Part shown: positions 223 to 20,870 of the stretch, piece after piece
How the letters are laid out: each line of letters starts with the position of its first letter
Position numbering within the stretch: position 1 is the first letter of the stretch
Source: a virus
Strand: one strand, 5' to 3'
IMG/VR virus record: IMGVR_UViG_3300002514_004451
Span: 8,321 to 44,962 of that record
Length of the DNA: 36,642 nt
Program-made: the position numbers and the translations under genes
Notes under the pieces: model-generated
The model's database searches: none
The model's input: only the letters and a program-made list of their open reading frames with translations
What the model was told of the DNA's origin: nothing

Positions 223-2613
223 ATGAAAGCAAAACTTAATATACTTGAAGCGTACTTGGACAAGGTTCTCCTTGAAGCAGGGGGAGTACACCAACGGTGG
301 TTTTCGGGAGCGGATGAGGCTGGGATAGAAGCCCTGAGAGCAGTCGCGATGTCTACCGGCAGCCAGCTTACAAAACAAGGCGCTCAGGTGGAAGCAGGAA
401 AGATGGGACCCTGGGGAGGTGCTCAAATTTCATCACCAGAGTTTGATGCTAAAACAGGTCAGGTAAAAGGTCCGGGTACTGTGTACTGGATGAGTAACGC
501 AACCGAGCTTAATTCTGGCAGTGCGGATAAGGTTTTGGCTGCCATTAATGACTGGGACCCGAAGAAGGCTCCCTCCGAAAAAGATGTTATCGATGCCGAG
601 CAGGGTGTTCAGGATGGTACTATTATGTCTCCTGAGGAACAACAAGCTGAAGCTGAAGAAGCCACAAGACAACAAGAAGCCGAGCTAAACGACCGACAAA
701 CTAACCCTGACCAAGTCGACCGAATGGCTAAAAACCTAGAACAGCTAGGCGTTGAGTTTACCACCTCCAAGCAAAAGTTAGGTCAAACTGAGGAAATTGT
801 GATGTCCGCTGAGGAAGTTGCTACCGCCATTGATGAGGCGTGTAAAATCCCTCCGTCTAATAGTTATATGGGTGGGTTGCTGGAGTGGTCCCGCGGGACG
901 GAAAATAAGTACGGGTTCGAAGGGGACGTAAACCAAGAAGTTCTAGACGTGTACGATGAGATTTTGAAAACAGTGCCTCATATACAATCCGACGATGATG
1001 GGAGGTACGTTTTGGAATCGGACCTGTCAGAAAGGCAAAAGGATGTTCTTGAGGCGGTTCGATGCCGAGGTAAAGGTTTATTTGTAGGGTTTAACAGAAA
1101 TGCAGAGACTACTAATAGCCTTCCAAAACTTGATGCCGCTATGAAAGGTCTCGAAACAGCGCGAGCAGAAGAAGGGAAAGAAACAAGCCGAGACTTCAAC
1201 ACCTACGGAGTCTCCAATTCACACACGAAACATATTTGTGCAGCAATGGGTGATGTTAAACTGAGAGACTCAGAAGGCAATGAGGTGCCACTTTTGAAAG
1301 CCTCCGGAGATGGAAAGAAAAAAGAAAACAATCTGGTTGGAACTTTTACGGAGAAAAGTTATGTAGGCATTCTTGAGTTTATGAATGGGCGAGGAGAAGA
1401 AACCATAAGTGAGGGAGTACAGGAGATGTCCGACTCCCTACAGAAGTTAGATAAGGCTGTTAGAGCAAGTGAATCATCTTTCGATGGTGTCATCCCTTCT
1501 CTTCTTTCAGATGAGGAAATCGAGGCTTGTGAATGGTACCAACGGGCTGAAAGAGCATATGAGATTCACGGACAGCCAAATGAATTGGTTAAAGCTTTGT
1601 TCATGCAAAGAGCCGGGGAGCTGAGAGACATTATCTCAACCGGGGGAGTATCTCCGATAGCTGCTAGGGAGCCCTCTAAAGAAGAAGAGCGAGGACACGA
1701 CAAGGTCCTTGGGGTGAAGCGTGACATTGTTTTTGAATTTGCAAGCGATAAAGATGCCCAAAAGTTTGCAAAAAATATAGGTCTAGGCAAGGAATACGCT
1801 CATGGTACCGAAGTCGATTTGTCCCTAAAAACTTTGGAAAGCATGAATAAAAGTATTAACTTCGAGGGGTGCACCCTAGATGTTGCACTGGATAACTCCC
1901 CCCTTGAACATAAACAGAAGGAGTACCAAGATAACTTCCAAAACAGAGTAGAGTATATAACCCGGACCAATAAGGCTATAGGCGCAGATACGGCTCAAAA
2001 TATGACAAAAGCTAAAGAGTGGGACCGAGAACAGTATGGTAAGATTCAATCCGCTCTCTCACAAAATAATTCGAACATTATGCCCGCGCTGGAGCAGATG
2101 ATTATGTCTTCTGGGGATAGAAATACAAGTGTAGCCGGAGGGATGAAAGCTAAGAAAGACTTTAAGAAGTTCGAAAAAATGGTGAAAGACATGAATTCGA
2201 CTACGGACCCAGAGGAAAGGAGAGCTTTGTCTACTTATGTGAGTCGCAACATGTTAGCTTTATTAAAATTTGAGAGAGCCACAAAAAATAAAAAATACGC
2301 ACAAGGAGCTGCGTTACATGATGTAATTAATACTTTGTCGTCCCGGGAATCCGAAGCGGTTGTTAGAGTTAATAGCGGGAAAGTATCTGTCTTCGCAGGG
2401 GATAGGATAATGGACGACGCTATATCTGCTGCTCTCGACGGGAGAGCTACACCACAACCTCTTGGAGGGTTTCATTTCAAAGACGAAGGGGGGAATAAGA
2501 TGTTCAATACATCCTATGCTGTGTCTCGACAAGGTTTTGTTAGGGTAAGAGGTACCGTCCAAGGACGCTATTTCAACAAACACTCTAAGATGCTTATGGA
2601 AGGAAGTGCGTAA
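223..2613 (+). CDS. Large protein of unknown function (796 aa)
   Basis: I do not recognise this protein. It starts at an ATG 10 bases after the terminator T-run and lacks a clear Shine-Dalgarno. It has no signal peptide or membrane segment. A Glu/Gln-rich, probably helical or disordered stretch lies at about residues 130-170 (EEQQAEAEEATRQQEAEL). Long charged helical regions follow, and the C-terminus (about 745-796) is beta-like and basic. Its size and its position next to a tail-tube-like gene make a virion or virion-assembly protein plausible, but that is an inference from location only. Its 3' end overlaps the convergent nuclease gene by 20 bases, with no terminator visible between them. 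Confidence 0.85.
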   Translation: MKAKLNILEAYLDKVLLEAGGVHQRWFSGADEAGIEALRAVAMSTGSQLTKQGAQVEAGKMGPWGGAQISSPEFDAKTGQVKGPGTVYWMSNATELNSGSADKVLAAINDWDPKKAPSEKDVIDAEQGVQDGTIMSPEEQQAEAEEATRQQEAELNDRQTNPDQVDRMAKNLEQLGVEFTTSKQKLGQTEEIVMSAEEVATAIDEACKIPPSNSYMGGLLEWSRGTENKYGFEGDVNQEVLDVYDEILKTVPHIQSDDDGRYVLESDLSERQKDVLEAVRCRGKGLFVGFNRNAETTNSLPKLDAAMKGLETARAEEGKETSRDFNTYGVSNSHTKHICAAMGDVKLRDSEGNEVPLLKASGDGKKKENNLVGTFTEKSYVGILEFMNGRGEETISEGVQEMSDSLQKLDKAVRASESSFDGVIPSLLSDEEIEACEWYQRAERAYEIHGQPNELVKALFMQRAGELRDIISTGGVSPIAAREPSKEEERGHDKVLGVKRDIVFEFASDKDAQKFAKNIGLGKEYAHGTEVDLSLKTLESMNKSINFEGCTLDVALDNSPLEHKQKEYQDNFQNRVEYITRTNKAIGADTAQNMTKAKEWDREQYGKIQSALSQNNSNIMPALEQMIMSSGDRNTSVAGGMKAKKDFKKFEKMVKDMNSTTDPEERRALSTYVSRNMLALLKFERATKNKKYAQGAALHDVINTLSSRESEAVVRVNSGKVSVFAGDRIMDDAISAALDGRATPQPLGGFHFKDEGGNKMFNTSYAVSRQGFVRVRGTVQGRYFNKHSKMLMEGSA

Positions 2614-3100
2614 CGTCCAACCCTAAGAAATCAGATAGCGTGTAAATATAATACTTTTCATTTATTGCAACAGTGTGAGATAAATTATATTTCTTACCTA
2701 CAATAACAAAAGGTTTGTGCCTCGTCTTTTTATAGATTACTAACCAATCCCGACCAGCCTGTTTAGCATCTCTCTTCGCTTGTTCTATGAATTTGTACAA
2801 ATCACTCTTAGGTTTGAAGATATCTTCGAAGGTAACATCGTATCCTGACTTACATTCTAAAATAAACTTAAAATTCTCTGGCGTTATTAGGTCTCCATGG
2901 ACTTTCATATACTGTGGCAAAACATGAGTAGTTGCGAAAGCTCCCGAACCTGGAGACCTGCAAAAATCAGTAGTGTTAAACCGGGTATTCAAAAGTTTAG
3001 CAATTTCTCTTTCAAATGCGTTGCCTTTTCTACGGCTATTAACCCTTTTCTTTTTTTTGAATTCGCCGTGGTTCAAAATATCATCTAATTTATCACCCAT
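2594..3100 (-). CDS. PD-(D/E)XK family nuclease, RecU/Holliday-resolvase-like
   Basis: This 168-residue basic protein has the layout of a small PD-(D/E)XK endonuclease. There is a Glu in the first helix (E30, within NAFEREIAKLL), then an RSPGSGA segment, an acidic GD (D70) and the core ECK motif (E82, K84) followed by an amphipathic strand and helix. Such enzymes cleave branched or damaged phage DNA, for example Holliday junction resolvases and T7 endonuclease I-type functions. The substrate cannot be told from sequence. The gene lies on the opposite strand to its neighbours. Its ATG follows a TATACTAG -10-like element by six bases, and its 3' end overlaps the big plus-strand gene by 20 bases. 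Confidence 0.7.
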   Translation of the reverse strand: MGDKLDDILNHGEFKKKKRVNSRRKGNAFEREIAKLLNTRFNTTDFCRSPGSGAFATTHVLPQYMKVHGDLITPENFKFILECKSGYDVTFEDIFKPKSDLYKFIEQAKRDAKQAGRDWLVIYKKTRHKPFVIVGKKYNLSHTVAINEKYYIYTLSDFLGLDVTHFLP

Positions 3101-3101
3101 A

Positions 3102-3118
3102 ATACTAGTATAATAGTA
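3102..3118. promoter_or_regulatory. Overlapping divergent -10 elements
   Basis: Only 18 bases separate the two divergent start codons (3100 minus, 3119 plus). The plus strand reads TATAATAG at 3109-3116, and the minus strand reads TATACTAG from 3112 down to 3105. Both overlap the perfect 10-base palindrome ATACTAGTAT (3102-3111). There are four and six bases, respectively, from the hexamer to each ATG, so transcripts would start at or next to the start codon. No -35 hexamer is recognisable. RNA polymerase could use only one direction at a time. Confidence 0.6.
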
Positions 3119-3436
3119 ATGAAAGAGAAAAAGATACCATTTAATCTTGCCAATGCCAAGTGCAAGGTAAACAACACAGGACGAAGAATGAAAATTTATA
3201 TTAAACTAAACAAGTCAGAAACCGAAGGCTGGAATCAAATTAAACAAGGTTTTACGGGGTTCAACGGAACTCAGGACGAACTTGTTAAAATGATGTTCTT
3301 TCGTGGCGTAAACGCGTTCATGGAAGACCTAAAAGAACAGGTTGGCGAACTCTCTGAAGAAGAGAAAGCAAAAATCATCGAGGAAGCTGAACAGGACAAC
3401 TCCGAAGTAAGTGAAACTAGTGAAACAGATAGTTAA
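3119..3436 (+). CDS. Small acidic-tailed protein, unknown
   Basis: This 105-residue protein is not recognised. The N-terminal part is basic (KEKKIPFNLANAKCK). A middle segment has predicted helices, and the last 35 residues are strongly acidic (LSEEEKAKIIEEAEQD followed by Ser/Glu/Thr). The ATG at 3119 is only four bases after a TATAAT element. A second in-frame ATG at 3188, with AGGA eight bases upstream, could be the true start if the transcript begins downstream of 3119. The acidic tail recalls those of phage ssDNA-binding or DNA-mimic proteins, but this is only a resemblance. It overlaps the next gene by 26 bases. Confidence 0.7.
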   Translation: MKEKKIPFNLANAKCKVNNTGRRMKIYIKLNKSETEGWNQIKQGFTGFNGTQDELVKMMFFRGVNAFMEDLKEQVGELSEEEKAKIIEEAEQDNSEVSETSETDS

Positions 3437-3731
3437 CATAAGGACCGAAAAAGAACTGTCGGCTTTGTACCAAAGAAAGAGATATGGGACTTTTAAAATC
3501 CTGTTCACTTCTACTTGGGATAAAAGCTGCCTCGCTCTTGATAAGGTCATTAACAAGTGGAAGGAAAAGGAAGGGGACGAGCTTCTTTATGTAATAAACA
3601 GCTGGGACCTTCCTGCCTCCTTTTCGATGTACATGGTCACATCTGTCCCTGCTTTAGTGCACCTTAAAAAGGGAAGAGTTAAGGTGGATGTAGAATACCC
3701 TACCGTGTATCGGTTTTTTGATTCACCTTAG
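3411..3731 (+). CDS. Thioredoxin-fold protein lacking first active-site Cys
   Basis: The 106-residue length and strand/helix order fit a thioredoxin fold. A beta strand (FKILFTST) leads into W36-D37-K38-S39-C40, where thioredoxins have WCxxC. A second half follows with the cis-proline signature (V79-P80) and the strand ALVHLKKGRVKV, matching the family's 'vPTlvlfkdG'. The first catalytic cysteine is replaced by Asp and only Cys40 remains, so it cannot be an ordinary dithiol oxidoreductase. A structural partner role, such as thioredoxin with T7 polymerase, or monothiol chemistry are options. The start is GTG at 3411, with a second GTG at 3420. The 3' end overlaps the convergent sigma gene by 32 bases. 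Confidence 0.6.
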   Translation: MKLVKQIVNIRTEKELSALYQRKRYGTFKILFTSTWDKSCLALDKVINKWKEKEGDELLYVINSWDLPASFSMYMVTSVPALVHLKKGRVKVDVEYPTVYRFFDSP

Positions 3732-4095
3732 GGTTTTCATCTTCAAAACGACCGCGCATTATCTCTTCGTATTTTTGTATTTTTAATCTGTACTTTTTAT
3801 TCTTAGTGAACATAAGTTTTAGATTATTTACAATAACTGTAGTAAAATAATTAAATGCGGCTCCGCTTTCGGGTTTGAAGTTCTTTAATGTCTTGATGGA
3901 AAGTAGAAAACATTCCTGCTTAGCATCATCAAAATCTACATTGAATTTAAAAGACATCAGAATGTTCGTAATAAGCAAATCAAGAAGTTCAATCAAGCGT
4001 TCTTCATGCTTTTTAGGGTCTTTTAAATACCCTTTAATAACCTTTTCAAACTCTGCGTTGTCTATGTAGTGAGTTTGCTTTTTCTTTTTAGCCAT
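3700..4095 (-). CDS. gp55-like late sigma factor
   Basis: The 131-residue basic protein looks like a minimal sigma-70 region 2, as in T4 gp55. An acidic-aromatic stretch, DFDDAKQECFLL (about 54-65), is followed by KTLKNFKPESGAAFNYFTTVIVNN (about 68-91). This is the 'lk.fdp..g..f.Yf..i..n' pattern of regions 2.1-2.3 that binds the beta' coiled coil and the -10 element. A basic C-terminus follows. There is no region 4, so it should not read a -35 element, as is known for T4 gp55. The best start is the ATG at 4095, five bases after a minus-strand TATAAT. A TTG at 4101 would add two residues. It probably directs RNA polymerase to the TATAATAG motifs seen in this window. Confidence 0.7.
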   Translation of the reverse strand: MAKKKKQTHYIDNAEFEKVIKGYLKDPKKHEERLIELLDLLITNILMSFKFNVDFDDAKQECFLLSIKTLKNFKPESGAAFNYFTTVIVNNLKLMFTKNKKYRLKIQKYEEIMRGRFEDENPKVNQKTDTR

Positions 4096-4110
4096 AACCA
4101 ATTATAGACC
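4096..4110. promoter_or_regulatory. Divergent promoter between sigma and polymerase genes
   Basis: Fifteen bases separate the minus-strand sigma ATG (4095) and the plus-strand polymerase ATG (4111). The minus strand carries a perfect TATAAT (4106 to 4101), five bases before the sigma start. The plus strand has a poorer TATAGA (4103-4108), two bases before ATG. The arrangement repeats that at 3102-3118. The minus-strand element is convincing and the plus-strand one is doubtful. Confidence 0.5.
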
Positions 4111-5091
4111 ATGAGTTTAGATAGTTTATTTAATTCTTTCGAAAATGATGAAAAAAAACAAATCCACCGAGAACCCGTCGGTGATGAAAAAATAGTCTTT
4201 TTACATGATTCTTATCGAAAGAAGTACGGGAAGACGTACAATTTTGATGACCAGGAATACGGAATCCTCGAGTCGTTGTTAGGGAAAACGGCTGTGCCCG
4301 ACGGCTCCTTCCAGTTCGTTCCTGCGCTTGGCGCTTATAACCTACGGGAGGATGATGTTACAACCGAGATATTGCACGCTCATCGTGAGAAGTTATCTGA
4401 GGATTTGCAGGCTATTGACCCTACTCTTATTATCCCTCTAGGAAACCTCGCGTTTAAGACTTTAACAAAGAAGTCCGGAGTCTCCACCAAGAGGGGTAAG
4501 GAGTTTCATGTGGAGATTGGCGGAAAGACCATTCCCGTCGTCCCTACGCTTCACCCGTTCTCCCTCTATTCTGAACCGAAGTTAAGGAGATTGTTCGTCC
4601 AGGACGTCGACAACGCGTATGACAAGTTTGTGTTGAATGTTAACAAGTTCGACTCCAGCCCGTATGAGTTAGTTACAGAGGTGGACAGGTTTGAAGAACT
4701 TATTGCAGAGGCTCGCAACCACGAGGCAGTGGCTATTGATATAGAGACTAATGGTTTAGATTACAAGTTGGGTAAGATTATGACCATTGGGTTTTCGTTC
4801 GAGGAGAAACAAGGGTTTGTAATTCCAATTTACCATAGCGAGTCTCAGTTTATAGACCGAGATATACAACGTATTAAAAAGGCAACACAAGGTCTCATTA
4901 CAGATGAGAACGTCGTCAAAATTTTTCATAACTCAAAGTTTGATGTAAAATTTCTTATGAATTGGGGAATCACGGACTTTAATAACATTGAGGATACGCA
5001 AATCATGCATGCCCTCGTAGATGAGAACCTACCACACTCCTTAATGGACTTGGTAAAACAATATTTCCCTCATGAATTAGAAAAGTTTTAA
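4111..5091 (+). CDS. DNA polymerase A part 1: UDG-like domain plus 3'-5' exonuclease
   Basis: Residues about 27-165 resemble a family 4 uracil-DNA glycosylase domain (PALGAYNLRE, then LGN 110-112, TKRGKEF and the HPF motif at 148-150). The N-terminal catalytic loop is not recognisable, so it is probably inactive, as in the N-terminal domain of SPO1-type polymerases. Residues about 195-326 are a DEDDy proofreading exonuclease with Exo I D210-I-E212 and Exo II N274-SKFD278. The protein stops straight after the helix where the Exo III motif should follow; that motif is in the ORF starting at 5336. The TAA stop overlaps the next ATG (TAATG). It would act at the replication fork with the other polymerase pieces. 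Confidence 0.8.
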   Translation: MSLDSLFNSFENDEKKQIHREPVGDEKIVFLHDSYRKKYGKTYNFDDQEYGILESLLGKTAVPDGSFQFVPALGAYNLREDDVTTEILHAHREKLSEDLQAIDPTLIIPLGNLAFKTLTKKSGVSTKRGKEFHVEIGGKTIPVVPTLHPFSLYSEPKLRRLFVQDVDNAYDKFVLNVNKFDSSPYELVTEVDRFEELIAEARNHEAVAIDIETNGLDYKLGKIMTIGFSFEEKQGFVIPIYHSESQFIDRDIQRIKKATQGLITDENVVKIFHNSKFDVKFLMNWGITDFNNIEDTQIMHALVDENLPHSLMDLVKQYFPHELEKF

Positions 5092-5333
5092 TGTCCTTAG
5101 AATTAAAGTACAGGCTACTTCTACTCCTTGTCGAGTGGGACCCGGCGGTAGTTTCAGCTACCACTGGGGAATTTATTATCTCTAGGGTAGCATCCCGTTT
5201 AAAAATAACAAAACCCCAGGCAAAGGGTATGATATCCAGCCTTAAAGAGCATTTAGCCTTATACGTTGATGACCTTGATTTTTGCCACAACATCAAATGG
5301 GCTACAAATAGAATAAAACATGTCTCACAATAA
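5091..5333 (+). CDS. 80-aa winged-helix-like protein inserted within polymerase gene
   Basis: This small ORF separates two parts of the polymerase exonuclease domain and matches no part of a polymerase. It is leucine-rich at the N-terminus (ELKYRLLLLLVEW). It then has a helix-turn-helix-like segment (residues about 29-50: ISRVASRLKITKPQAKGMIS) and a short hydrophobic and charged tail, which suggests a small winged-helix DNA-binding protein. Start and stop junctions are tidy: its ATG shares a base with the upstream TAA, and its stop is two bases before the next ATG. It therefore looks translated, not a sequencing artefact. It could be a captured mobile ORF or a remnant of one. No HNH, GIY-YIG or LAGLIDADG motif is visible. 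Confidence 0.65.
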   Translation: MSLELKYRLLLLLVEWDPAVVSATTGEFIISRVASRLKITKPQAKGMISSLKEHLALYVDDLDFCHNIKWATNRIKHVSQ

Positions 5334-5335
5334 TT

Positions 5336-5809
5336 ATGTTAACAGTAACTAACGGAGCGAAGCAGGACTGGGGTAGTATGCCCCTGGACGAAATGGCAAT
5401 TGGTAATGCTATGGATTGTGATTTCACATTACGATTCTGGCGTATCCTACGTAAAGACATGCGGAAGAAGCAAGTGCATCATGTGTATGATAATCTGTTG
5501 AAAGAGATTGCTATCGAGCTTGCGGGGGTAGAAAACTTCGGGATAGCGGTGGATACAGGGTATCTTGATGAGCTGGAAGTTAAGCTGGAGAGAGAGATTG
5601 GTATTCTTGAAAAAGAACTACAAGAGTTGTCCCCAATTGAAGAGGTTAATGTAAACTCAAATGTTGATTTACAACGAATCTTATTTACAGAGGACGAAGG
5701 GCTTAACCTTTACCCTGTAACTTTTACTAAGAAAACCAAAAAACCATCGGTGACTGACGCCGACCTCCAATTAATTTTGGAGGAGATTGAAAAGACGCTT
5801 GTAGGATGA
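5336..5809 (+). CDS. DNA polymerase A part 2: Exo III motif and thumb-like region
   Basis: The 157 residues continue the polymerase where the first part stopped. The early segment AIGNAMDCDFTLRFW (residues 21-35) aligns with the Exo III region 'YaaeDADvTlrLh' of family A enzymes. The Asp is kept (D27), but Gly stands where the catalytic Tyr is expected. Next comes IELAGVENFGIAVDTGYLDEL, the usual 'mE..Gv.iD...L' helix at the start of the thumb, then a helical region and KKPSVTDADLQLIL, which normally precedes the palm. It ends at a TGA in an ATGA overlap with the next ORF. It belongs to the same enzyme as the flanking ORFs and must assemble with them if active. Confidence 0.75.
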   Translation: MLTVTNGAKQDWGSMPLDEMAIGNAMDCDFTLRFWRILRKDMRKKQVHHVYDNLLKEIAIELAGVENFGIAVDTGYLDELEVKLEREIGILEKELQELSPIEEVNVNSNVDLQRILFTEDEGLNLYPVTFTKKTKKPSVTDADLQLILEEIEKTLVG

Positions 5810-6921
5810 AAAAAGAAATATATCAAAAAGTAATCGGGGAGAAATCTAAAAGTGAACTACAAGCTGCAAAGGACTTCATTACCACACTTCTTGAATACAA
5901 GAAGAAATGTAAACAGCACAAGACGTATGTAAAAGGCGTTAAAGCTGCGATTGCGTACAACAAAGAAGACCGTATCTATTCAAGCTATAACTTCTCTCAA
6001 ACCGTTACAGGACGGCTAAGCTGTTCCACGTATGTGTGTGGTCCAAAGATGAAGAAAGGGGTGTCCTTTCACACGTTACCCCGACCTACTGAGGACAATG
6101 TTAATATCCGTAAATTGATGAAATCCGATGGGGATAAAGCTTTCATCGCGGCAGACTTCTCTCAAGCTGAGTTGCGAGTGCTCGCGCAGTGCTGCAAGGA
6201 TAAAAACCTAATTAAAGCGTTCACGTCCGGTCAAGACCTCCATAGCTTTACGGCATCGTTGGTGTTTGGGAAGGACGTAAAAGACGTTACTAAAACAGAG
6301 CGTCAAATTGCAAAAAGTGTTAGCTTCCTTATTGTGTATGGGGGAGGACCTAACAAATTGGCACAACAAATTAACAAGCCCGTTGCGTACTGTAAGGGCA
6401 TCTTTAAGGCATACCAAGATTCCTTTCCTAACGTTTTTAAGTGGATTAGTGTTATCCATAAAAGCGTTAAAGAGCACGGGTACGCGGTTAGCCTTTTCGG
6501 CAGGAGAAGGAATCTACCAAACGTTAACAGCCCTATAAAGAAATATCAATATAGAGCTTTAAGGCAGGGATTGAATTTTGTTATTCAAAGTTCGGCTTCG
6601 GATTTAATGCTCCACTCTATTACAAGACTTTGTAAAGACTTAGATGGCGCTGGAGTTAAGTACGATTTGTTAGCGACTGTCCATGATTCGGTGGAGCTTC
6701 AATGTGAGGTTAAGGATGTGGAGCGTTGCGTGGAAATCATGCGTAAAAGTCTTACGTCCACCGAAGATTTACACACGTACTACGGCTTAGATTTTATAGT
6801 TCCCTTTGAAGTAGACATTGAAGCTGGGACTTCTTTTGGAGACGGGATAGAAGTGGAGTTTACCCCACAAGGTTCTGTCCTAAATACAAGTGAAATTACC
6901 AATTATGTCCAAAACAACTAG
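5806..6921 (+). CDS. DNA polymerase A part 3: catalytic palm and fingers
   Basis: This 371-residue protein has the full polymerase core. The TGR primer-template motif is at 68-70. Motif A is ADFSQAELR with catalytic D117. Motif B is R166-QIAK170-SVSF174-LIVY178-G, and motif C is HDS at 293-295. The residue equivalent to E. coli Pol I Phe762 is Phe174; this position varies among Phe, Tyr and Leu in marine phages and affects nucleotide discrimination. The expected 'tTYv' helix (HKTYVKG, 38-44) is near the start. The gene begins in an ATGA overlap with part 2, so it is likely made by coupled reinitiation. It is the replicative polymerase core of the phage. Confidence 0.92.
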   Translation: MKKEIYQKVIGEKSKSELQAAKDFITTLLEYKKKCKQHKTYVKGVKAAIAYNKEDRIYSSYNFSQTVTGRLSCSTYVCGPKMKKGVSFHTLPRPTEDNVNIRKLMKSDGDKAFIAADFSQAELRVLAQCCKDKNLIKAFTSGQDLHSFTASLVFGKDVKDVTKTERQIAKSVSFLIVYGGGPNKLAQQINKPVAYCKGIFKAYQDSFPNVFKWISVIHKSVKEHGYAVSLFGRRRNLPNVNSPIKKYQYRALRQGLNFVIQSSASDLMLHSITRLCKDLDGAGVKYDLLATVHDSVELQCEVKDVERCVEIMRKSLTSTEDLHTYYGLDFIVPFEVDIEAGTSFGDGIEVEFTPQGSVLNTSEITNYVQNN

Positions 6922-7924
6922 AGTAGTCCTCCTTACGGACCTTCATTTACGAAGCGATTACGTGCCCGGGTACCTTGAATGCCAGCTTGGTACGTTAACT
7001 AAGTTGGTTAACCAAAAACCTACCGATGCTGTGGTTATCAACGGTGATATATTCCATAAAAGAAACCCTAGAGGTGCGGAACTGTTAGCTTTTAGGAGAC
7101 TGTTGGAGAGTTTTAAATGCTCAAAGATATACATAAACAGGGGAAACCACGACACCGTTGCAAAGGATGGCTCTACTGACACCACTCTATCCTTGTACGG
7201 AGATATAGCAACCGTCTTTGCTGATATAGGTACTGCCCACATAGGTTCTGTGGATTTTGATTTTATCCCTCACTTTGAGAATGAGAGGCAAATTGTCCGA
7301 GCTGTTAAAGCTTCCAAGAATCATTTTTTCGGACATTTCGGGTATGATGGGTGTGTTGCTAACGGAAACTATAAGTATGATTCTTATTTAAAGCCTTCCC
7401 ATTTCAACAAGGACACGTTGCATTTTCTAGGGCACATCCACAAACCACAACAGCACAAGAGTACGTATATCCTAGGGACTCAATACTCAACCTCTTTTGG
7501 GGAGGCTAATGCCCAGAAGTATATCCACGAGCTTATTATCAGGGACGGCGCTGTAGAGGTTATTAAAAAGCCAATTGATTTTGGTATACGCCACGTTGTT
7601 TCCCGGATAGATGAGCTCCCCCTCCTATCCAGCCGCCTTAGGTTTGATAACTTCTTTATTATTCTTAGACTAAAACTGGACTACCTTGATTCTTCCACAG
7701 AGCAAGCATTACGCGATGATGTTCTGGAGAAGTATTCTATTAACCATTTGGAGTTTGCGTTTGACGACATCCTTCCAAAGTTTGATTCCAGTTTCAACCC
7801 AAAGAGCGATGTGTTTTCTATTGATGATGGTATTATTTCAAAATACCTTAATGAGGCGGACACGGTGTTTTCACAAAAAGAATTATTAGGAGCTCTTTCC
7901 GAGATACGAAACTATGAAGATTAA
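6905..7924 (+). CDS. SbcD/Mre11-type nuclease (T4 gp47-like)
   Basis: This calcineurin-like phosphoesterase shows the family motifs in order: TDLHLR (D-x-H, about residue 11-16), NGDIFHKR (GD, about 45-52), NRGNHDT (GNHD, about 79-85), FGHFGYDG and FLGHIHKP (GHxH). With the SbcC/gp46 ATPase directly downstream it forms the Mre11-Rad50-like complex that processes DNA ends for recombination-dependent replication. The ATG at 6905 gives a start just before the first beta strand. An upstream GTG at 6890 would add five residues inside the polymerase gene. It overlaps the polymerase end by 17 bases and the ATPase start by 11, so translation is coupled. Confidence 0.9.
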   Translation: MSKTTRVVLLTDLHLRSDYVPGYLECQLGTLTKLVNQKPTDAVVINGDIFHKRNPRGAELLAFRRLLESFKCSKIYINRGNHDTVAKDGSTDTTLSLYGDIATVFADIGTAHIGSVDFDFIPHFENERQIVRAVKASKNHFFGHFGYDGCVANGNYKYDSYLKPSHFNKDTLHFLGHIHKPQQHKSTYILGTQYSTSFGEANAQKYIHELIIRDGAVEVIKKPIDFGIRHVVSRIDELPLLSSRLRFDNFFIILRLKLDYLDSSTEQALRDDVLEKYSINHLEFAFDDILPKFDSSFNPKSDVFSIDDGIISKYLNEADTVFSQKELLGALSEIRNYED

Positions 7925-9521
7925 CAGAGTAAAAATAAGCAATTTTCTATCCATAAAAGAGGCAGAGATTGATTTTGAATCCTATAGTGATTTAGTACGT
8001 ATCTTAGGACAGAACAAGGATACTAAACCTACAAGTTCCAATGGAGCCGGAAAAAGTAGTGTAATAGAGTCTATCGTATTTTCGTTGTTTGGAAAAACAA
8101 TAAGGAAGACGACGGATAAAAGTTTAAAAAACCATTATACCAAAGGCAAGTGCGAGGTCGAGATTGTAGTAAACGACAACGTTGTGGTTAAGCGGGTTAA
8201 AAAACCTCCTATGCTTACTGTTACCGTAGATGGTGAAAATGTAACGCAGGAGTCTATACAAGCTACTCAAAAGTATCTGGATAAAATTTTAAACACGAAC
8301 TTCTCTGTGTTCTTAGCTTCAATGGTATTCGGTCAGTCTAACAAGATGAATTTCTTAACTGCTACCGCAGAAGAAAAGAGAAATATAATCCAAAGCTTTC
8401 TGGATATAGGGGACGTATTCCAATACCGTAAAGTTATAAAATCTAAAAAAGGGAAAGCATATTCTAAAAAGAAAATAGCCGAAACGTTATGTTCAGAAGC
8501 TCTTTCTAAAAAAGAAAAGTTAGAGGGGCAAATTAATACCACGAAGAAACACAAGAAAGCGGCAAAAGTTTTGATGGATTCAAAAGTTGCAAAGGAGTTC
8601 ACAAAGTTCTCCATTTCGGAACTACAGGAGAATGAACAACTTAGGTATGCTGCGGGGGTAGAGTTTGAGTCCGCTAGCCATTCCCTAAGCAGAGCCCAAC
8701 AACGCATGACGCAGGTTCGTGGGAAGCTAAAAACTTTTAAAATTTCCCAATGTGAGTTTTGTGGGGAGACACCGACAAAAGAGAGAAGTTTAGTTTCTGC
8801 GTGGAAAAAGGAGTTAGAGGTTCTTGAGGGGGAACTTCAAGCAAAACGAAGGTACATCAAAGAACAAGGGCAGAGGCTCGAAAACTTTGGTCCTGAAATA
8901 TCCCCCAACGACTTCGAGCTGTTCGAGAAGTACAAAACCTTTGATACCGAGTTTAAAATATTAAAGGCTCAAAAAAGAGGAAATGCGAAACTCTTAAAGA
9001 AACACCAAAAAGAGGTAGAAACCGCTCAAAGAAATTACGACCTTATGAGGTTTTGGGAGCAGGCATTCTCTGAACAAGGTTTAATTAAGTTCGTAATACG
9101 TAATATTCTCGAGTTTTTCAACGACCGAGTTAATTATTATCTAAAATTTTTAAGCTCTTCAAATTTTTCTGTAACTTTTGATGAAACTTTGAAGGAAGAA
9201 TTCTATAATAAAGGGACACTAACTTTCTTCGATGCATTATCTGGTGGGGAGAAGAGGAAGGTGTCACTGTCTATCATGCTGGGCTTAAATGACCTTCTTT
9301 TACTTTCTGGGAAAGAGAGGTCGAACCTAATCTTCTTTGATGAAGTAGCAGAGTCCTTGGATGAGGGAGGCGTAAAAGGATTGTTCGAGCTACTGCAGGA
9401 CATTTCTAAAAATAAAAAAGTTTTTGTAATAACACACAACGACTATTTGAATTCACTCTTGGAAGATGAGTCAGAAAATCTTCACGTTACAAAAAAAGCA
9501 AATATAACTACTGTACAATGA
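7914..9521 (+). CDS. SbcC/Rad50-type ATPase (T4 gp46-like)
   Basis: The 535-residue SMC-like ATPase has Walker A SNGAGKSS (42-49), a central coiled-coil region (about 170-380) broken by a zinc-hook CEFC (C280 and C283), the ABC signature LSGGEKRKV (442-450) and Walker B NLIFFDEVAES (471-481) with a D-loop. The coiled coils are short, as in phage gp46 proteins and unlike about 1000-residue cellular SbcC. It pairs with the upstream nuclease and supplies ATP-driven DNA tethering and end access. The stop overlaps the GroES start (ATGA). Confidence 0.92.
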   Translation: MKINRVKISNFLSIKEAEIDFESYSDLVRILGQNKDTKPTSSNGAGKSSVIESIVFSLFGKTIRKTTDKSLKNHYTKGKCEVEIVVNDNVVVKRVKKPPMLTVTVDGENVTQESIQATQKYLDKILNTNFSVFLASMVFGQSNKMNFLTATAEEKRNIIQSFLDIGDVFQYRKVIKSKKGKAYSKKKIAETLCSEALSKKEKLEGQINTTKKHKKAAKVLMDSKVAKEFTKFSISELQENEQLRYAAGVEFESASHSLSRAQQRMTQVRGKLKTFKISQCEFCGETPTKERSLVSAWKKELEVLEGELQAKRRYIKEQGQRLENFGPEISPNDFELFEKYKTFDTEFKILKAQKRGNAKLLKKHQKEVETAQRNYDLMRFWEQAFSEQGLIKFVIRNILEFFNDRVNYYLKFLSSSNFSVTFDETLKEEFYNKGTLTFFDALSGGEKRKVSLSIMLGLNDLLLLSGKERSNLIFFDEVAESLDEGGVKGLFELLQDISKNKKVFVITHNDYLNSLLEDESENLHVTKKANITTVQ

Positions 9522-14769: not shown

Positions 14770-15513
14770 ATGGTAAACTTAGACGAACTACGTAAGAAAT
14801 ACGAGGAAGTTACTCAGCAGAACAGCGGCAGTAACAAAGATTTTCTCAGTAAATTTTTAATCACGAAAGAAGGTACTTCTCTTGTCCGACTTCTTCCCTC
14901 GAAGAACGAAGATGAGAACTTCTATGCGGAAACTGCTATTCATCGATTGGAAAATGATGGACAGTTTAAAAACTATCACTGCCCACGAGTTAAAGGCGAT
15001 AAATGTCCGTTGTGCGATTTGTACTACGGTCTCTGGAAGACAGATAGTGAAGATAACCACAACCTTGCCCGAAGCATTAAAGCGCGGAAGCGTTACTATT
15101 TGAATGCTGTGGAGCGGGAGACTGGCGATGTTAAAATTCTATCTATCGGCATGAAGCTGTTTGGTAAGATTTTGGATTGTTTCTTTGATGACGACTACGG
15201 AGATATCACTGACTTGGAAAAAGGTTTTGATTTCAAAATTGTTAAAGACATCAATGGACAATTCCCTAATTACGACAAATCAGCTCCGAAGCCTCGCTCT
15301 ACCGAGGCAGGCTCAGGTGCAGAGGTAGCGGCTTGGATGGATTCTTTGCACGATATCCAAAACCTTGTTAAAATTGCCGAGTATGATGACCTAAAACAAT
15401 TAGCTATGAACTATGAGTTAGGTGCGGTAGGGATGGGACATTCCCCCGGCGTACAGGCAAAAACAAAGGACGATGATTACTTGTCTCACCTTAAAAGTTT
15501 AGATACTAAGTAG
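14770..15513 (+). CDS. ssDNA-binding protein, T4 gp32-like
   Basis: The 247-residue protein has gp32 features. The N-terminal cooperativity-type segment (MVNLDELRKKYEEV) is followed by an OB-like core with a zinc site H70-C71 ... C79-x2-C82 (YHCPRVKGDKCPLC). Family-typical text follows, such as RKRYYLNAV and SIGMKLFGKI, and then a DFKIVKD strand. The C-terminus is less acidic than in T4. It coats single-stranded DNA and should work with the RecA homologue, the helicase and the polymerase. The stop (TAG) shares its last base with the GTG start of the first glycosyltransferase, linking replication to the sugar operon. Confidence 0.85.
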   Translation: MVNLDELRKKYEEVTQQNSGSNKDFLSKFLITKEGTSLVRLLPSKNEDENFYAETAIHRLENDGQFKNYHCPRVKGDKCPLCDLYYGLWKTDSEDNHNLARSIKARKRYYLNAVERETGDVKILSIGMKLFGKILDCFFDDDYGDITDLEKGFDFKIVKDINGQFPNYDKSAPKPRSTEAGSGAEVAAWMDSLHDIQNLVKIAEYDDLKQLAMNYELGAVGMGHSPGVQAKTKDDDYLSHLKSLDTK

Positions 15514-16748
15514 TGAGCGAGAAGAAGAAGAAACTTAAGATTTTGGCGTGCCCTGCAAATAAAGGAGGGTGCGCCTATTATCGTATTATTATGCCAATGG
15601 AAAAGTTGGCAGAGCTTTACCCTGATGATGTGGAAGTCAGGTTTAATTATGACCCTTTAGACGCCGAGGGCGCCCAAGAGAGGGAAGGTGCGTTGTTAAA
15701 GCCTGATGAGTGTGAGGATATAAAGTGGGCAGACATTGTGTTCTTCCACAATATACACAACTTTGGGGGTCCTTACACTGTGGAAATTCTTAAAGCAGCA
15801 TTAGAGCTTGGGAAATTTACACACTACGACACCGATGATTTGTTAACAGACTTGTATGAAGGGCATAGGCTTGTAAAAACATATAGGGATTTAGGTCTTT
15901 CGGATTTAACTAAAGCTTTGTATGCAAATTCCGATATGGTTTCTGTTACGCAGGCAAAGTTTGCGGAAAGAATACAACCGTTTGTAACTAAAGCATTGGT
16001 CATTATTAAAAACGCAGTAGATTATGACCTCCCATGCTGGAACAGTCCAAAAGCTCCTCCCCCTAATAAAAAGCATACCCGAATTGGGTGGGCTGGGGGT
16101 ATCCATCATGAAGAGGATGTTAAAGAATTTCGCTCCGTAGCTATGGGGGTAAACAGTAAGCTGGGTGTGCCAAATGTTACTTGGAACTTTTTTGGGAGAC
16201 CCCCCAAAGGTCCAAAAGGTGAGAAGGATACTGAACAGGAACAGTGGCAACAGGACGTATGGGACAACTATGAGAAGTCCCTTTCTTTCGGCGTCACCAG
16301 AAAAAGAAATGTTCTGTTTCACCCAGCCATGGCTTCCAATGAGTATGGTTATATGTTCAGGGGTCTTGAGATTATTATAGCCCCTCTACAGATGAATAAT
16401 TTTAATGATTCTAAATCGGAGATTAAAGCAATGGAGGCTGGTAGGTACGGACTACCATTAGTAGCCTCTAATGTTGGGTGCTATGATGAGATTATTAAAA
16501 ACGGAGAAACTGGGTACCTAATTCCTCCAGACAACCCCCGGTCCGAATGGGTTAAGATTTTAACTCGCTTGTCTAAAGATAAGCAAATGAGAGAGGAGTT
16601 AGGGGCTAACTTAAAGAAGATAACAGATGAGTATTACGACATCAATAAAGTAGTTGGTGGTCGTGTTGAATTATATAAGCAAGTTATGGATATTAAAGAA
16701 AAAGCCATAGCTAATTCTAAGTACAAAGGACTGCCTGGAAGTGAATAA
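15513..16748 (+). CDS. Glycosyltransferase, GT4-like
   Basis: The 411-residue GT-B protein has an N-terminal half opening with KILACPANKGGCAYYRIIMP. Its C-terminal nucleotide-sugar domain has RIGWAGGIHHEEDV, LEIIIAPLQMNNFNDSKSEIKAMEAGRYGLPLVAS and NGETGYLIPPDN, the usual GT4 donor-binding signature (Glu in KAMEAG, then 'glPvvas..g...ei..g..G'). It would transfer a sugar from a nucleotide donor to a glycan or other acceptor. The start is GTG, fused to the upstream TAG, with no strong Shine-Dalgarno. It is the first of six glycosyltransferase-like genes in a row. Confidence 0.85.
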   Translation: MSEKKKKLKILACPANKGGCAYYRIIMPMEKLAELYPDDVEVRFNYDPLDAEGAQEREGALLKPDECEDIKWADIVFFHNIHNFGGPYTVEILKAALELGKFTHYDTDDLLTDLYEGHRLVKTYRDLGLSDLTKALYANSDMVSVTQAKFAERIQPFVTKALVIIKNAVDYDLPCWNSPKAPPPNKKHTRIGWAGGIHHEEDVKEFRSVAMGVNSKLGVPNVTWNFFGRPPKGPKGEKDTEQEQWQQDVWDNYEKSLSFGVTRKRNVLFHPAMASNEYGYMFRGLEIIIAPLQMNNFNDSKSEIKAMEAGRYGLPLVASNVGCYDEIIKNGETGYLIPPDNPRSEWVKILTRLSKDKQMREELGANLKKITDEYYDINKVVGGRVELYKQVMDIKEKAIANSKYKGLPGSE

Positions 16749-17346
16749 CATAAGCGCACTTATTAAAACTATTGGGAGACCTACCCTACAAAATGCTATC
16801 GATAGCGCAAACAGGGAAGGTATTAAACCTATTGTTGTTTCTGACGGACATCCTTTGTTCGACCCGGAGACGGACCAGATGATAGTTAGTGGGGTATACG
16901 CAGCCACTGAACTAAAAAAGAATTGGGGCTGTTATGGCGCCGTAGCAGCAAATGCAGGAGTCGCTTTATGTGACACGGATTGGTTAATGATTTTAGATGA
17001 TGATGATGAATTGGAGAAAGGTGCTGGAGAATATATTAGAGAGCAAATACGCGCTAACCCTCATATCGATATATGGATTCCGGGTCTTATCTTTAATAAC
17101 GGTATGGTTTTATGCGATGGTTCTAATACGACTTGCCAGCCAGGCAATGTAGCAGTTCCTATTGCGAAAGTTGAGTGTTTTACGGAAGCTCCTTTTAGGA
17201 CCAAAGTTCCCGAGAAATATAAAGATTATGCTGATTTTTTTCAGATAGAGGAGATGCACAAGATGGGGCACACGATGGCGTGGTTGGGGAAAACAACTTA
17301 TTTAGTAAGACCAAAATTAGATGGTACTAACGGGAGAGGAAAATGA
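16741..17346 (+). CDS. GT2-like glycosyltransferase
   Basis: The 201-residue protein has a compact GT-A fold. It opens with ISALIKTIGRPTLQNAIDSA and has a helix with AANAGVALCDTDWLMILDDDDELEKGA, the GT2 pattern in which the DxD-type acidic cluster binds the metal and nucleotide. The C-terminal part is short, so the acceptor side is minimal. It starts with GTG and overlaps the preceding gene by eight bases; its TGA overlaps the next ATG. Donor and acceptor are unknown. Confidence 0.75.
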   Translation: MNNISALIKTIGRPTLQNAIDSANREGIKPIVVSDGHPLFDPETDQMIVSGVYAATELKKNWGCYGAVAANAGVALCDTDWLMILDDDDELEKGAGEYIREQIRANPHIDIWIPGLIFNNGMVLCDGSNTTCQPGNVAVPIAKVECFTEAPFRTKVPEKYKDYADFFQIEEMHKMGHTMAWLGKTTYLVRPKLDGTNGRGK

Positions 17347-18029
17347 TTACACTAATATGTTCCACTTATAACTCCAGTGAATGGATTGATGGTTACCTAG
17401 AATCGGTTAACAATCAAACCCTCCCTTTCTTTAATATTCATTTTATTGATGCTGGGTCCACTGACGGGTCTTGGTTGAAGATTAAAAATTTTGAGTTTAG
17501 GGTGGGGATTTCAGTGAAGTACACCTGGTCCCCAGGCTGCTCAATTTATGAGGCTTGGAATATAGGGTACCAAGAGACTAACTCCCCCTACTGTATGAAT
17601 TACAACACGGACGACAAACTCTTCCCTAATGCACTGTCTACAATGCTGGCTCACGCGAAGGCTAACCCGGATGTTGATGTTTTGTACTCCCCTTGCTTAA
17701 TTACAAACACTAAAAATCATACCCCGATTGTGGGTATACACGATTGGGCGGAGTTTTCAAAGGAAGCTCTTTTAGCCAATTGTATTTTAGGTCCGTTCCC
17801 ACTAGTAAAAACTAAAACAGTCGAAGAGGCTGGGTGGTTTAACCCTAAGTTTACTATTTCTGGGGATTACGAAATGTGGCTACGATTAGAATCAAAAGGC
17901 TATACCTTTAAAAAGATAGAAGAGCCTATTGGAAAGTATTTCAATAACCCTCAGGGGGTAAGCTCTAACCGGGAAACTTTTCAGGAGCATGTTGAACAAG
18001 ATATGAAGATAAGGAATATGTACGGATGA
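17343..18029 (+). CDS. GT2 family glycosyltransferase
   Basis: The 228-residue protein shows the GT2 start MITLICSTYNSSEWIDGYLESVNNQTLPFFNIHFIDAGSTDGS (region 1-43). This is the standard 'vsiviptyN....l...l.Sv..Qt....eiivvDdgStDgt' layout. The acidic metal-binding residues follow in NYNTDDKLFPNAL, and a downstream GDYEMWLRL stands where the catalytic 'ED..l..R' base is found. A GGAGAGGAAA Shine-Dalgarno precedes ATG 17343. It belongs to the glycan operon, with ATGA overlaps on both sides. Confidence 0.88.
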   Translation: MITLICSTYNSSEWIDGYLESVNNQTLPFFNIHFIDAGSTDGSWLKIKNFEFRVGISVKYTWSPGCSIYEAWNIGYQETNSPYCMNYNTDDKLFPNALSTMLAHAKANPDVDVLYSPCLITNTKNHTPIVGIHDWAEFSKEALLANCILGPFPLVKTKTVEEAGWFNPKFTISGDYEMWLRLESKGYTFKKIEEPIGKYFNNPQGVSSNRETFQEHVEQDMKIRNMYG

Positions 18030-18706
18030 ATGTAATTGCATTTAGTTTATGGGGTGATTCCCCTCGGTATAATCTAGGTGCCCTACAAAACGCTAGCCTT
18101 GCTAAGATAGTGTACCCTGATTGGGTGTGTAGGTTTTACGTAGGTGTAGATACCCCAATGTACATAAGAGAGCTTCTTTCTGATTTTGATAATACTGAAA
18201 TTGTTGAAACGGGTGAAGATGGGAGTAAGGCTTATGGGATGTTTTGGAGGTTCAGAGCGGCAGCGGACCCAAAGGTTACTAATTTAATTATTAGGGATTG
18301 TGATTCTAGACTATGGTTTCGAGAATCCAAAGCTGTGGAACAGTGGCTAGCTAGTGACAAAGACTTTCATATTATGAGAGACCATGAGTACCACAACGCC
18401 GTAATCCTTGGGGGTATGTGGGGGGTTAGAAATGGTGCTCTTTTAGGGATAGAAGGTATGTTGGAGATGTACGGCGCGGGCGATTATTGGCAAGCGGACC
18501 AGGAGTTTTTACGAGACGTGGTGTACGATACTGCCGCGCCTAACGCTTTTGTACATGATGAGTTCTTTAATCTGCAAACCGGTCACAAGTTTCCAACCAA
18601 AAGAAATCCAAAACACTTTGTCGGTCAAGCTTATGCCGGGTGCGGTAGGATTTTGGACGCGGAAGAGTACTTCCAAGAATTTATTAAAGGAGAGATGAAT
18701 GCCTAA
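18026..18706 (+). CDS. Glycosyltransferase-like protein (DxD, GT8/GT32-like)
   Basis: The 226-residue protein begins FSLWGDSPRYNLGALQNA and carries IIRDCDSRLWFRE (about 92-104), with a DxD-like metal site (D-C-D) in the place expected for GT-A enzymes. HNAVILGGMWGVRNG follows. This general order is seen in GT8/GT32-like proteins, which often sit in surface polysaccharide clusters. The family match is by pattern only. It overlaps both neighbours by a few bases and is clearly part of the same operon. Confidence 0.55.
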   Translation: MNVIAFSLWGDSPRYNLGALQNASLAKIVYPDWVCRFYVGVDTPMYIRELLSDFDNTEIVETGEDGSKAYGMFWRFRAAADPKVTNLIIRDCDSRLWFRESKAVEQWLASDKDFHIMRDHEYHNAVILGGMWGVRNGALLGIEGMLEMYGAGDYWQADQEFLRDVVYDTAAPNAFVHDEFFNLQTGHKFPTKRNPKHFVGQAYAGCGRILDAEEYFQEFIKGEMNA

Positions 18707-19322
18707 AAACGAAAAAGATATTAAATTAAGTATACTTATTTTATCCATCCCTACAAGGTTTGACATTGTTAAACCTTTGTTCGATAAGCTCCTAAAGCAG
18801 ATTGGAGACAGGGTGGATGTTGAGGTTATATCCTTGATGGACAACAAGTCCCTCCACATTTATGAGAAACGAAATAAGTTATTAGACATCGCTAGAGGTT
18901 CCCATATCGCATGGCTAGACGATGACGATGATGTATCTGACGACTATGTTGAGGTGCTTACCCGCGCAATCAAAGGAAAGCCTTTTGTTGATGTAATTAG
19001 TTTTAACCAAACCTGTTATTTAGAAGGGAAAAAAGCTCTAGTATTTGCCGCAATGGAACACCCCCACCAGCCAGTGCTTTGGGACCACCAAGCCAATAAA
19101 TACAAAGACACTTTACGACGTCCTTGGCATTGGTGTGTTTGGAAAACTTCTCTAGCTAAATCAGAATTGTTCAAGGAAGCGTATGATGAAGGAGGGCAGT
19201 CTTGTGAGGATATCGACTGGTTAGAAAGGTTATACCCTAAAGTTAAAAGTAGTTTCTACTTAAAAGACTCGTTCTTACACATTTACAGATGGTCAACACA
19301 AACAACGGAGTCAGTGCTGTGA
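18699..19322 (+). CDS. GT2-like glycosyltransferase
   Basis: The 207-residue protein has a GT2 layout. An opening strand, IKLSILILSIPTRFD, is followed by KRNKLLDIARGSHIAWLDDDDDVSDDYVE, in which the DDDDD cluster is the metal/nucleotide site, and CEDIDWLERLYP near the C-terminus matches the 'ED.dl..R' catalytic region. AGGAG sits about seven bases before the ATG at 18699 and decides the start over the ATG at 18695 that belongs to the previous frame. Donor and acceptor are unknown. Confidence 0.8.
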   Translation: MPKNEKDIKLSILILSIPTRFDIVKPLFDKLLKQIGDRVDVEVISLMDNKSLHIYEKRNKLLDIARGSHIAWLDDDDDVSDDYVEVLTRAIKGKPFVDVISFNQTCYLEGKKALVFAAMEHPHQPVLWDHQANKYKDTLRRPWHWCVWKTSLAKSELFKEAYDEGGQSCEDIDWLERLYPKVKSSFYLKDSFLHIYRWSTQTTESVL

Positions 19323-20023
19323 AAAACGAGTTAGTTATCCACCACCACTTAGGTTTAGGTGACCATTTTGATATGAACGGGATGGTACGTCATTATTTAA
19401 ATACTTACGATAAAGTTCATGTATTTAGCAAGGAATCTTACCTTCCTATGGTAGAGTATATGTATAGGGACAATGATAATATTATAGTACACGAGCTGGG
19501 GTTTCCTGGCGACGAACTTATGTCTGTTGAAGTCTTTATAGAGCAAAATAACGTTGAAAACTTTCTTCGTATAGGGTTCGAACATTACCCCTTCGGGTTA
19601 GAGGAGGCGCAGGGCAAGAATTGTTGGGAGTTTTTTTATGAGCAAGTAGAAGTGCCGAAAGAAGTTCGCGTACTTAACTTCCACTGCGAGAGGAATGAAG
19701 AAGAAGAAACCAGAGTACTTAACAAACTAAACCCAGATGGGGAGCCGTTCGTTTTCGTACATGATGACCCCGCCAGGGGTTTCACCATCGACCGCAGTAA
19801 AATTGATTCAGGTCTTAAAATTATAGAGAACGACACCTCAGAAAATATATTTTATTTTTTGAAAGTGTTGGAAGAGGCTGAAGCCATCCATTGTATGGAA
19901 AGCTCTTTTAAATCTCTAATAGATTTATACGCGAAGACCGACCAGCTATACTACCATGATTTCAGGAACCAACCTTTAGGCTCCTACACTAACAAAAAGT
20001 GGGAGATTGTTGAGTATGCTTAA
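19319..20023 (+). CDS. Probable GT-B glycosyltransferase-like protein
   Basis: The 234-residue protein starts with NELVIHHHLGLGDHFDMNGMVRHYL. This recalls the N-terminal 'GlGDhi...p.l..l' loop of GT9-like and other GT-B enzymes. The second half has FVFVHDDPARGFTIDRSK and AIHCMESSFKSLIDLYAKT, like the donor-side region of GT-B proteins. The chosen start is GTG 19319: it forms a GTGA overlap with the preceding stop and has GGAG eight bases upstream. An in-frame ATG at 19289 would add ten residues inside the previous gene. The sugar is unknown and the family assignment is moderate. Confidence 0.55.
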   Translation: MKNELVIHHHLGLGDHFDMNGMVRHYLNTYDKVHVFSKESYLPMVEYMYRDNDNIIVHELGFPGDELMSVEVFIEQNNVENFLRIGFEHYPFGLEEAQGKNCWEFFYEQVEVPKEVRVLNFHCERNEEEETRVLNKLNPDGEPFVFVHDDPARGFTIDRSKIDSGLKIIENDTSENIFYFLKVLEEAEAIHCMESSFKSLIDLYAKTDQLYYHDFRNQPLGSYTNKKWEIVEYA

Positions 20024-20870
20024 GTACCTTTGTTATAATTGGATGGGGTCTGTTGCCGACCACTGCTTAGACCTGACTAGAGAGGTGTACAAGTCTTGGG
20101 GGGTGGGCAGGCTTCATGATAAAACTTTAAACCCTGAGGATATTAAGGAGGGAGACGTTGTTTTCGTAAAAACAGATTATATTTACAACGGGCATTTCCA
20201 AACAGAAATACTTCCGAAAATACAAAGTCCTTTTACTTTGCTTACAGGAACATCTTCATACCAAGTTTCCAAAGGCTACGAGATATACTCTATTGTGAAT
20301 AGCCCCCTTGTTAGAAAGTGGTACTGTACTAATGCCCCAAAAGGTTATGGTTCGAAAATCATACCCATGCCAATCGGGTTTGAAGAAGTGGAGAGAGACG
20401 GAGGCAATCAAGAACTACTGGACCGCTTACGAAAAAACCGGACCCCGTTTAAGGAGAAGAAGGACAGGGTATTCCTTCCGTACCATACACTGAGCACCAA
20501 CCCAGAGAGGCGAGAACTTTTTGAAAAGTTAAGTGACCTGCCTTTCGTAGAAACCCAGACTGCCAAACTACCTTTCGATGAGTACGTAGAAAAAATGGAC
20601 AAGTACCAGTTTGTTATATGCTTAGAAGGGTCGGGTCCGGATGTGCATAGAAACTACGAGGCTTTATTGGTAGATACTGTTCCAATAAACAAGGCTAATA
20701 TCATAGAAGAGGTATTCAAGGTGCATAGGTTGCCGGGGGAGTTTGTGAGTTCTTGGGATGATTTGGATAAAAAGTGCTTCCAAAAGATGGTCTCAAAGCA
20801 CTATAATGTAAGTGGTAATGGGGAGTTTTTAGAAATTGCTACCCACGCAGAGAGTGTTAAAAATGAATAA
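20016..20870 (+). CDS. Exostosin/GT47-like glycosyltransferase
   Basis: The 284-residue protein has the C-terminal signature YQFVICLEGSGPDVHRNYEALLVDTVPI. It resembles the exostosin-type (GT47) and related GT-B block 'f.l.p.G.g.ds.R.wEal..GciPVi', in which Glu contacts the donor. Upstream, the segment VFLPYHTLSTNPERRELFEKL matches the linker of such proteins. The ATG at 20016 is preferred over two upstream TTG codons. It overlaps the previous gene by eight bases. It likely adds one residue to the same glycan. Confidence 0.65.
   Translation: MLKYLCYNWMGSVADHCLDLTREVYKSWGVGRLHDKTLNPEDIKEGDVVFVKTDYIYNGHFQTEILPKIQSPFTLLTGTSSYQVSKGYEIYSIVNSPLVRKWYCTNAPKGYGSKIIPMPIGFEEVERDGGNQELLDRLRKNRTPFKEKKDRVFLPYHTLSTNPERRELFEKLSDLPFVETQTAKLPFDEYVEKMDKYQFVICLEGSGPDVHRNYEALLVDTVPINKANIIEEVFKVHRLPGEFVSSWDDLDKKCFQKMVSKHYNVSGNGEFLEIATHAESVKNE

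Follow-up and report, generated by a model that had tools for sequence, protein, structure and literature searches.

Do three successive open reading frames in a stretch of viral DNA encode one DNA polymerase in separate pieces, or has a continuous enzyme been interrupted by error, by intervening sequence, or by decay? The question is raised by a locus within 36,642 nucleotides of viral DNA (the window), taken from a virus record of 45,929 bases (IMG/VR IMGVR_UViG_3300002514_004451, bases 8321-44962). A first-pass annotation, made from the letters alone, had proposed that a single family A polymerase of the uracil-DNA glycosylase (UDG)-like/exonuclease/polymerase type is spread over three frames here, two of which share the residues of its proofreading site. 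The frames, named ORF1, ORF2, and ORF3, are separated by two junctions, J1 and J2 (Table 1).

Table 1. Polymerase locus and flanking genes, in window positions; residue numbers are those of the respective ORF.
Feature	Position	Strand	Description
Sigma-70 region 2-like protein	3700-4101	-	Divergent from the polymerase operon; syntenic in relatives
ORF1	4111-5091	+	326 aa; UDG-like domain and first part of 3'-5' exonuclease domain; ends in ELEKF and stop
Exo I D210/E212	4738-4746	+	On ORF1
Exo II N274/D278	4930-4944	+	On ORF1
Junction J1	5089-5093	+	TAATG; ORF1 stop overlaps ATG of the 80-aa ORF; equals E. coli Pol I F473/E474
80-aa ORF	5091-5333	+	In J1 gap (cargo); no Pfam or PHROG match
ORF2	5336-5809	+	157 aa; end of exonuclease domain, linker, first part of thumb
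G23	5402-5404	+	On ORF2; in place of the Exo III Tyr
Exo III Asp D27	5414-5416	+	On ORF2
Junction J2	5806-5809	+	ATGA; ORF3 ATG overlaps ORF2 TGA; equals E. coli Pol I ~622 (thumb)
ORF3	5806-6921	+	371 aa; remaining thumb, palm, fingers
Motif A D117	6154-6156	+	On ORF3; aligned to E. coli
Motif B R166/K170/Y178		+	On ORF3; aligned to E. coli
Motif C H293-D294	6682-6687	+	On ORF3; aligned to E. coli
SbcD-like nuclease subunit	6908-7924	+	Downstream of ORF3; syntenic in relatives
SbcC-like	7914-9521		After the SbcD-like gene; syntenic in relatives

The NCBIfam DNA polymerase I model NF004397 (889 positions) is tiled by ORF1 at 271-433, ORF2 at 447-577, and ORF3 at 576-886, and PHROG_17 is matched in successive stretches by the same ORFs (479-785, 794-923, and 926-1239, respectively). 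Among Pfam families, ORF1 matches DNA_pol_A_exo1 (6e-21) and UDG, of the uracil-DNA glycosylase superfamily (3.5e-5), and the family A polymerase is matched strongly by ORF3 (DNA_pol_A, PF00476; 2.8e-73) and weakly by ORF2. These concordant profiles confirm the single polymerase proposed at first reading; the three ORFs lie at the proposed coordinates, and the proposed junctions are all present: TAATG, a 2-base gap between the 80-aa ORF and the ORF2 ATG at 5336, and ATGA. Judged from the profiles, the three ORFs read as one exonuclease-polymerase of which no part is evidently absent or duplicated. The closest protein from an isolated phage shows ~33% identity, and no isolated phage has a close match at the DNA level.

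Alignment to E. coli Pol I equates D210/E212 of ORF1 with D355/E357, N274/D278 with N420/D424, and D27 of ORF2 with D501, so that the assignment of Exo I and Exo II to the first polypeptide, the Exo III Asp to the second, and the palm to the third was correct. All four exonuclease acids (the equivalents of D355, E357, D424, and D501) are kept, spread over two chains; D210, E212, and D278 are invariant in 13 aligned ORF1s, as are G23 and D27 in 11 aligned ORF2/3s. The glycine that replaces the usual Exo III tyrosine (Y497) is present as annotated, but it is a family-wide trait rather than a local oddity, being found in every aligned relative. This replacement may reduce exonuclease activity, and membership of the family A polymerases does not require the tyrosine. 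The new termini created at J1 are also conserved, with ELExF and a stop at the end of ORF1 and MLTV at the start of ORF2.

Relatives were collected by IMG/VR scans with ORF3, ORF1, and alignments, yielding 59 non-redundant loci with complete ends, in which ORF1 is at least ~34% identical to family references. In all 59, ORF1 stops and ORF2 starts at one alignment position, E. coli Pol I ~473/474, which is part of an exonuclease-domain loop that separates Exo II from Exo III. The deeper contigs L208, L209, and L212 (43-44% identity) have the identical break, and none of the relatives found in the IMG/VR scans is continuous at this position. J1 is old and family-wide. It is bare in at least 11 contigs, where nothing other than TAATG or TAA-N-ATG separates the pieces; the overlap of TAATG type is seen in L001, L046, L075, L106, L119, L122, L134, and L212, and a stop and ATG one base apart in L094, L099, L112, and L208. 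The remaining loci have a gap of 172 to 3,732 bases, and gap length modulo 3 divides the 59 loci into classes of 13, 23, and 23. J1 is empty in the deepest-branching relatives (L119, L122, L208/L209, and L212), and because these deep branches carry the bare form, it may be the ancestral one. A putative ribosome-binding site precedes ORF2 in 6 of 10 empty-J1 loci and 10 of 49 filled ones, a weak enrichment over a background of 14%.

The history of J2 is different, since this break is clade-specific. Among the window, L001-L005, and L029-L035, every sequence that covers J2 is split there with ATGA, and a second split lineage comprises L125 and nine further contigs (10 in total), with ATGA in all but L137, which has TAATG. 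The other relatives are fused at J2; those of ~50-70% identity contain one frame of ~505 aa. In a tree with outgroups left out, the two J2-split lineages stand apart, which implies a minimum of two changes, and an AU test does not reject their union in a single clade (p-AU 0.21). Both lineages share an extended, similar ORF3 N-terminus that is absent from the fused relatives. J2 is either younger than J1 or recurrent, with one or two origins. The first-pass annotation had pointed to relatives as the place to look for shared breakpoints and for a continuous frame; J1 was found in every relative examined and J2 in all close relatives, from independent metagenomes, and a continuous frame was found at J2 alone, in relatives of ~70% identity.

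L125 is a 130,604-base contig of the Prochlorococcus AG-409-P03 single-cell assembly, and the same contig is present in IMG/VR as L128. It was the one relevant match in a search of genome contigs, the others being a cellular Pol I and a fragment. The occurrence of a phage with a three-piece polymerase in a Prochlorococcus single-cell genome hints at the host of this lineage, or at a co-sorted particle.

The J1 gap is a recurrent cargo site for accessory genes, including glutamine synthetase, ThyX, and others. Glutamine synthetase is located there in 28 of the 59 loci, 27 recognised by clustering of the inserted ORFs and one, L117, in which the glutamine synthetase frame extends beyond the ORF2 start. 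The enzyme is of the GlnII type, with a match to NCBIfam GlnII (1.6e-87) that is nevertheless under the curated cut-off, and its top solved-structure matches are glutamine synthetases of ~350-380 residues; examples between polymerase pieces are L002:2228-3193 and L004:3480-4451. Its presence at J1 in about half of the relatives suggests a possible nitrogen-related auxiliary metabolic gene. No glutamine synthetase was found elsewhere in the empty-J1 records checked, which are partial. ThyX occupies the gap in 5 loci and a saccharopine-dehydrogenase-like gene does so in 4; the other inserts include a DUF3310 protein and small ORFs. The 80-aa ORF of the window has homologues (47% in L008) that follow glutamine synthetase in the J1 gaps of L008/L049 and L115. 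An ORF of 165-169 aa (L072:1283-1792 and the L093 insert) resembles a PD-(D/E)XK nuclease by eye and, if a nuclease, is a candidate mobility gene; the L072 copy matches nothing in Pfam, PHROG, or PDB. Insertions between the pieces are tolerated, since no sequence there needs its frame kept.

Nei-Gojobori estimates in the window's clade gave dN/dS of 0.025-0.071 for ORF1, ORF2, and ORF3 where dS was estimable; in the other comparisons, where synonymous sites are saturated, dN is ~0.03-0.12 for each of the three pieces within this clade and, for ORF1 and ORF2 only, 0.12-0.30 in the L125 clade. These substitution patterns indicate that all pieces are under purifying selection. AlphaFold models, which are of single chains, were built from 11-13 sequences, and have moderate confidence, resemble the Klenow exonuclease and UdgX, and Taq/Bst polymerase. 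Their confidence drops at ORF1 298-326 and ORF2 1-34, the ends expected to meet, which is faintly consistent with dependence on a partner chain. Neither a family B polymerase nor DnaE was found in eleven virus records tested (metagenomic, incomplete, and of up to 130 kb), and among twelve records the split PolA is the only PolA present.

The T4-type major capsid protein gp23 was found in 11 of the 12 records tested. In the virus record of the window (G000; gp23 gene at record bases 2022-3308, just outside the window) and its relatives, the T4-type capsid gene accompanies a family A rather than a family B polymerase, an apparent polymerase replacement in a T4-like lineage. Beside the polymerase operon, the sigma-70 region 2-like protein is perhaps a phage late sigma factor, and a small upstream ORF at 3411-3731 is weakly thioredoxin-like (E 0.067), with ORFs similar by eye preceding the polymerase in L125, L208, and L212. 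Further downstream, a block of genes at 15513-26040 and 30394-31356 encodes glycosyltransferases, aminotransferases, and nucleotide-sugar epimerases, whose likely role is to modify glycans of the surface or virion.

Several other explanations of the breaks were weighed. Frameshift errors of sequencing or assembly in one polA gene could be suspected from the origin of the window in one metagenomic contig, the run of A that adjoins J2, and the continuity of ~70% identical relatives there. The same breaks are nevertheless present in many independent contigs of several metagenomes, with gaps of up to 3.7 kb that carry conserved cargo; sequencing error is therefore excluded, its probability being practically nil, and the initial preference for a real split is upheld. 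Group I introns are common in phage polA genes, and the J1 gap could accordingly be a self-splicing intron, or a split intein, such that a continuous protein is made. An intron was also considered for the polymerase of phage MEP401 by the authors of PMC10580990. Rfam introns were found neither in the window, even permissively, nor in 11 relatives; intein domains were not matched at the piece ends, which end and begin in polymerase sequence; and J2 has no intervening sequence at all. Moreover, the contigs with bare TAATG or TAA-N-ATG cannot be spliced into one frame, and empty alleles are not continuous. Since the bare TAATG alleles contain nothing to splice, introns and inteins are excluded as a general cause, and we regard this explanation, including the spliced RNA that the first-pass annotation had left as an alternative, as extremely improbable.

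Programmed frameshifting or read-through that fuses the pieces part of the time could draw on the -1 position of the next frame at the ATGA of J2 and at the bare TAATG of J1. The mixed gap lengths modulo 3 mean that the frame relation at J1 varies across relatives, and there is therefore no conserved frameshift or read-through; in addition, no slippery heptamer is visible by eye at J1 or J2, and cargo genes part the frames in most phages. It is a very unlikely explanation, and hardly less unlikely is a split gene in decay, whose pieces are remnants or have separate jobs and whose phage uses another polymerase. The latter could be argued from the Tyr to Gly replacement in Exo III and from a possible host or unseen phage polymerase, but it is opposed by the purifying selection on every piece, the invariant catalytic residues, the family-wide retention, and the lack of any other polymerase in the records tested. 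One further proposal bears on origin only and not on present function: a homing endonuclease may once have broken the gene in the way that mobE broke Aeh1 nrdA, and later have been lost or replaced by cargo. Such splitting is an established way in which T4-related phages acquire genes in pieces (PMC2988022), but no homing endonuclease (HNH, GIY-YIG, or LAGLIDADG) was recognised among the J1 inserts tested, and the deepest-branching relatives have an empty J1, with a bare stop/start that may be ancestral. We consider such an origin doubtful, albeit conceivable.

With error excluded and the pieces conserved under purifying selection, a polymerase assembled from two or three chains is very probably by far the best reading. 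It is likely, and we hold this with good confidence, that the pieces form the replicative family A polymerase of uncultivated marine gp23-capsid phages, made as individual polypeptides that come together with no covalent bond between them. The pieces would be translated from one operon, with initiation that is independent or coupled through the stop/start overlaps. ORF1, with its UDG-like domain and exonuclease half, would dock onto ORF2/ORF3, whereby D210, E212, and D278 of one chain and D27 of another could rebuild a composite metal-binding proofreading site, and ORF2 and ORF3 might pair via thumb helices. Accessory genes would meanwhile have used the inter-piece gap as a place to dock. For the broader proposal, in which a marine phage lineage has an obligate multi-subunit family A replicase with a two-chain proofreading site, and breakage of the polymerase created room for cargo within an essential gene, turning J1 into a long-lived slot for inserting and exchanging metabolic genes (GlnII, ThyX, and others), we see the chances as evenly balanced.

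The relatives provide a natural and evolutionarily stable series of TAATG-only, cargo-filled, two-piece, and three-piece forms, which lets one ask how a replicative polymerase that is cut, with its active site split between chains, still works. They are also a possible source of natural split-polymerase parts, and they show how accessory metabolic genes can become lodged within an essential gene and yet not disrupt it. In practice, a pipeline that looks for PolA at full length will call these phages wrongly or discard them.

That phage polymerases can be split is already known; it is the form in three pieces, the exonuclease site divided over two chains, the constancy of the break across the clade, and the use of the gap for cargo that look undescribed in the open-access literature, where searches of work on virioplankton PolA and far-T4 phages brought up no mention of such a split. 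The replicative polymerase of Aeromonas phages 25 and 44RR is likewise encoded in two genes, gp43A and gp43B, and the halves from phage 25 co-purify and show DNA polymerase activity (PMC2988022). That enzyme belongs to family B, has two pieces, and has a seg homing endonuclease or an untranslated spacer in its gap, whereas the group of the window has a family A enzyme, up to three pieces, and accessory genes in the gap. In Aeh1, the essential ribonucleotide reductase NrdA is similarly in pieces around an inserted gene (nrdA-a/mobE/nrdA-b) and is reported to be functional (PMC2988022). As there, the pieces in the window's group are separately initiated and all retained; the Aeh1 insert is a homing endonuclease, of which none was recognised among the J1 inserts tested. 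The polymerase gene of phage MIJ3 (PolB) is also divided around another gene (HNH), but a split intein presumably rejoins the protein (PMC6892783), and no intein was found in the window's group.

Among family A enzymes, the polymerases of the OM43 phages MEP401 and MEP402 are likewise encoded by two ORFs, which flank a small one of unknown function (PMC10580990). These phages belong to a different group (Zobellviridae), and the MEP401 break lies immediately ahead of motif A, at E. coli Pol I ~699 compared to ~473 and ~622 here, leaving the whole exonuclease on one chain. The PolA proteins of Herelleviridae (SPO1/phi18, LpeD, and VL10), which are among the nearest isolates at ~33% identity, have the same UDG-like, exonuclease, and polymerase architecture. 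They are continuous, and the loop equivalent to J1 is variable in them, with long in-frame insertions in VL10 and LpeD; on this comparison, the J1 break appears to sit where the fold already tolerates change.
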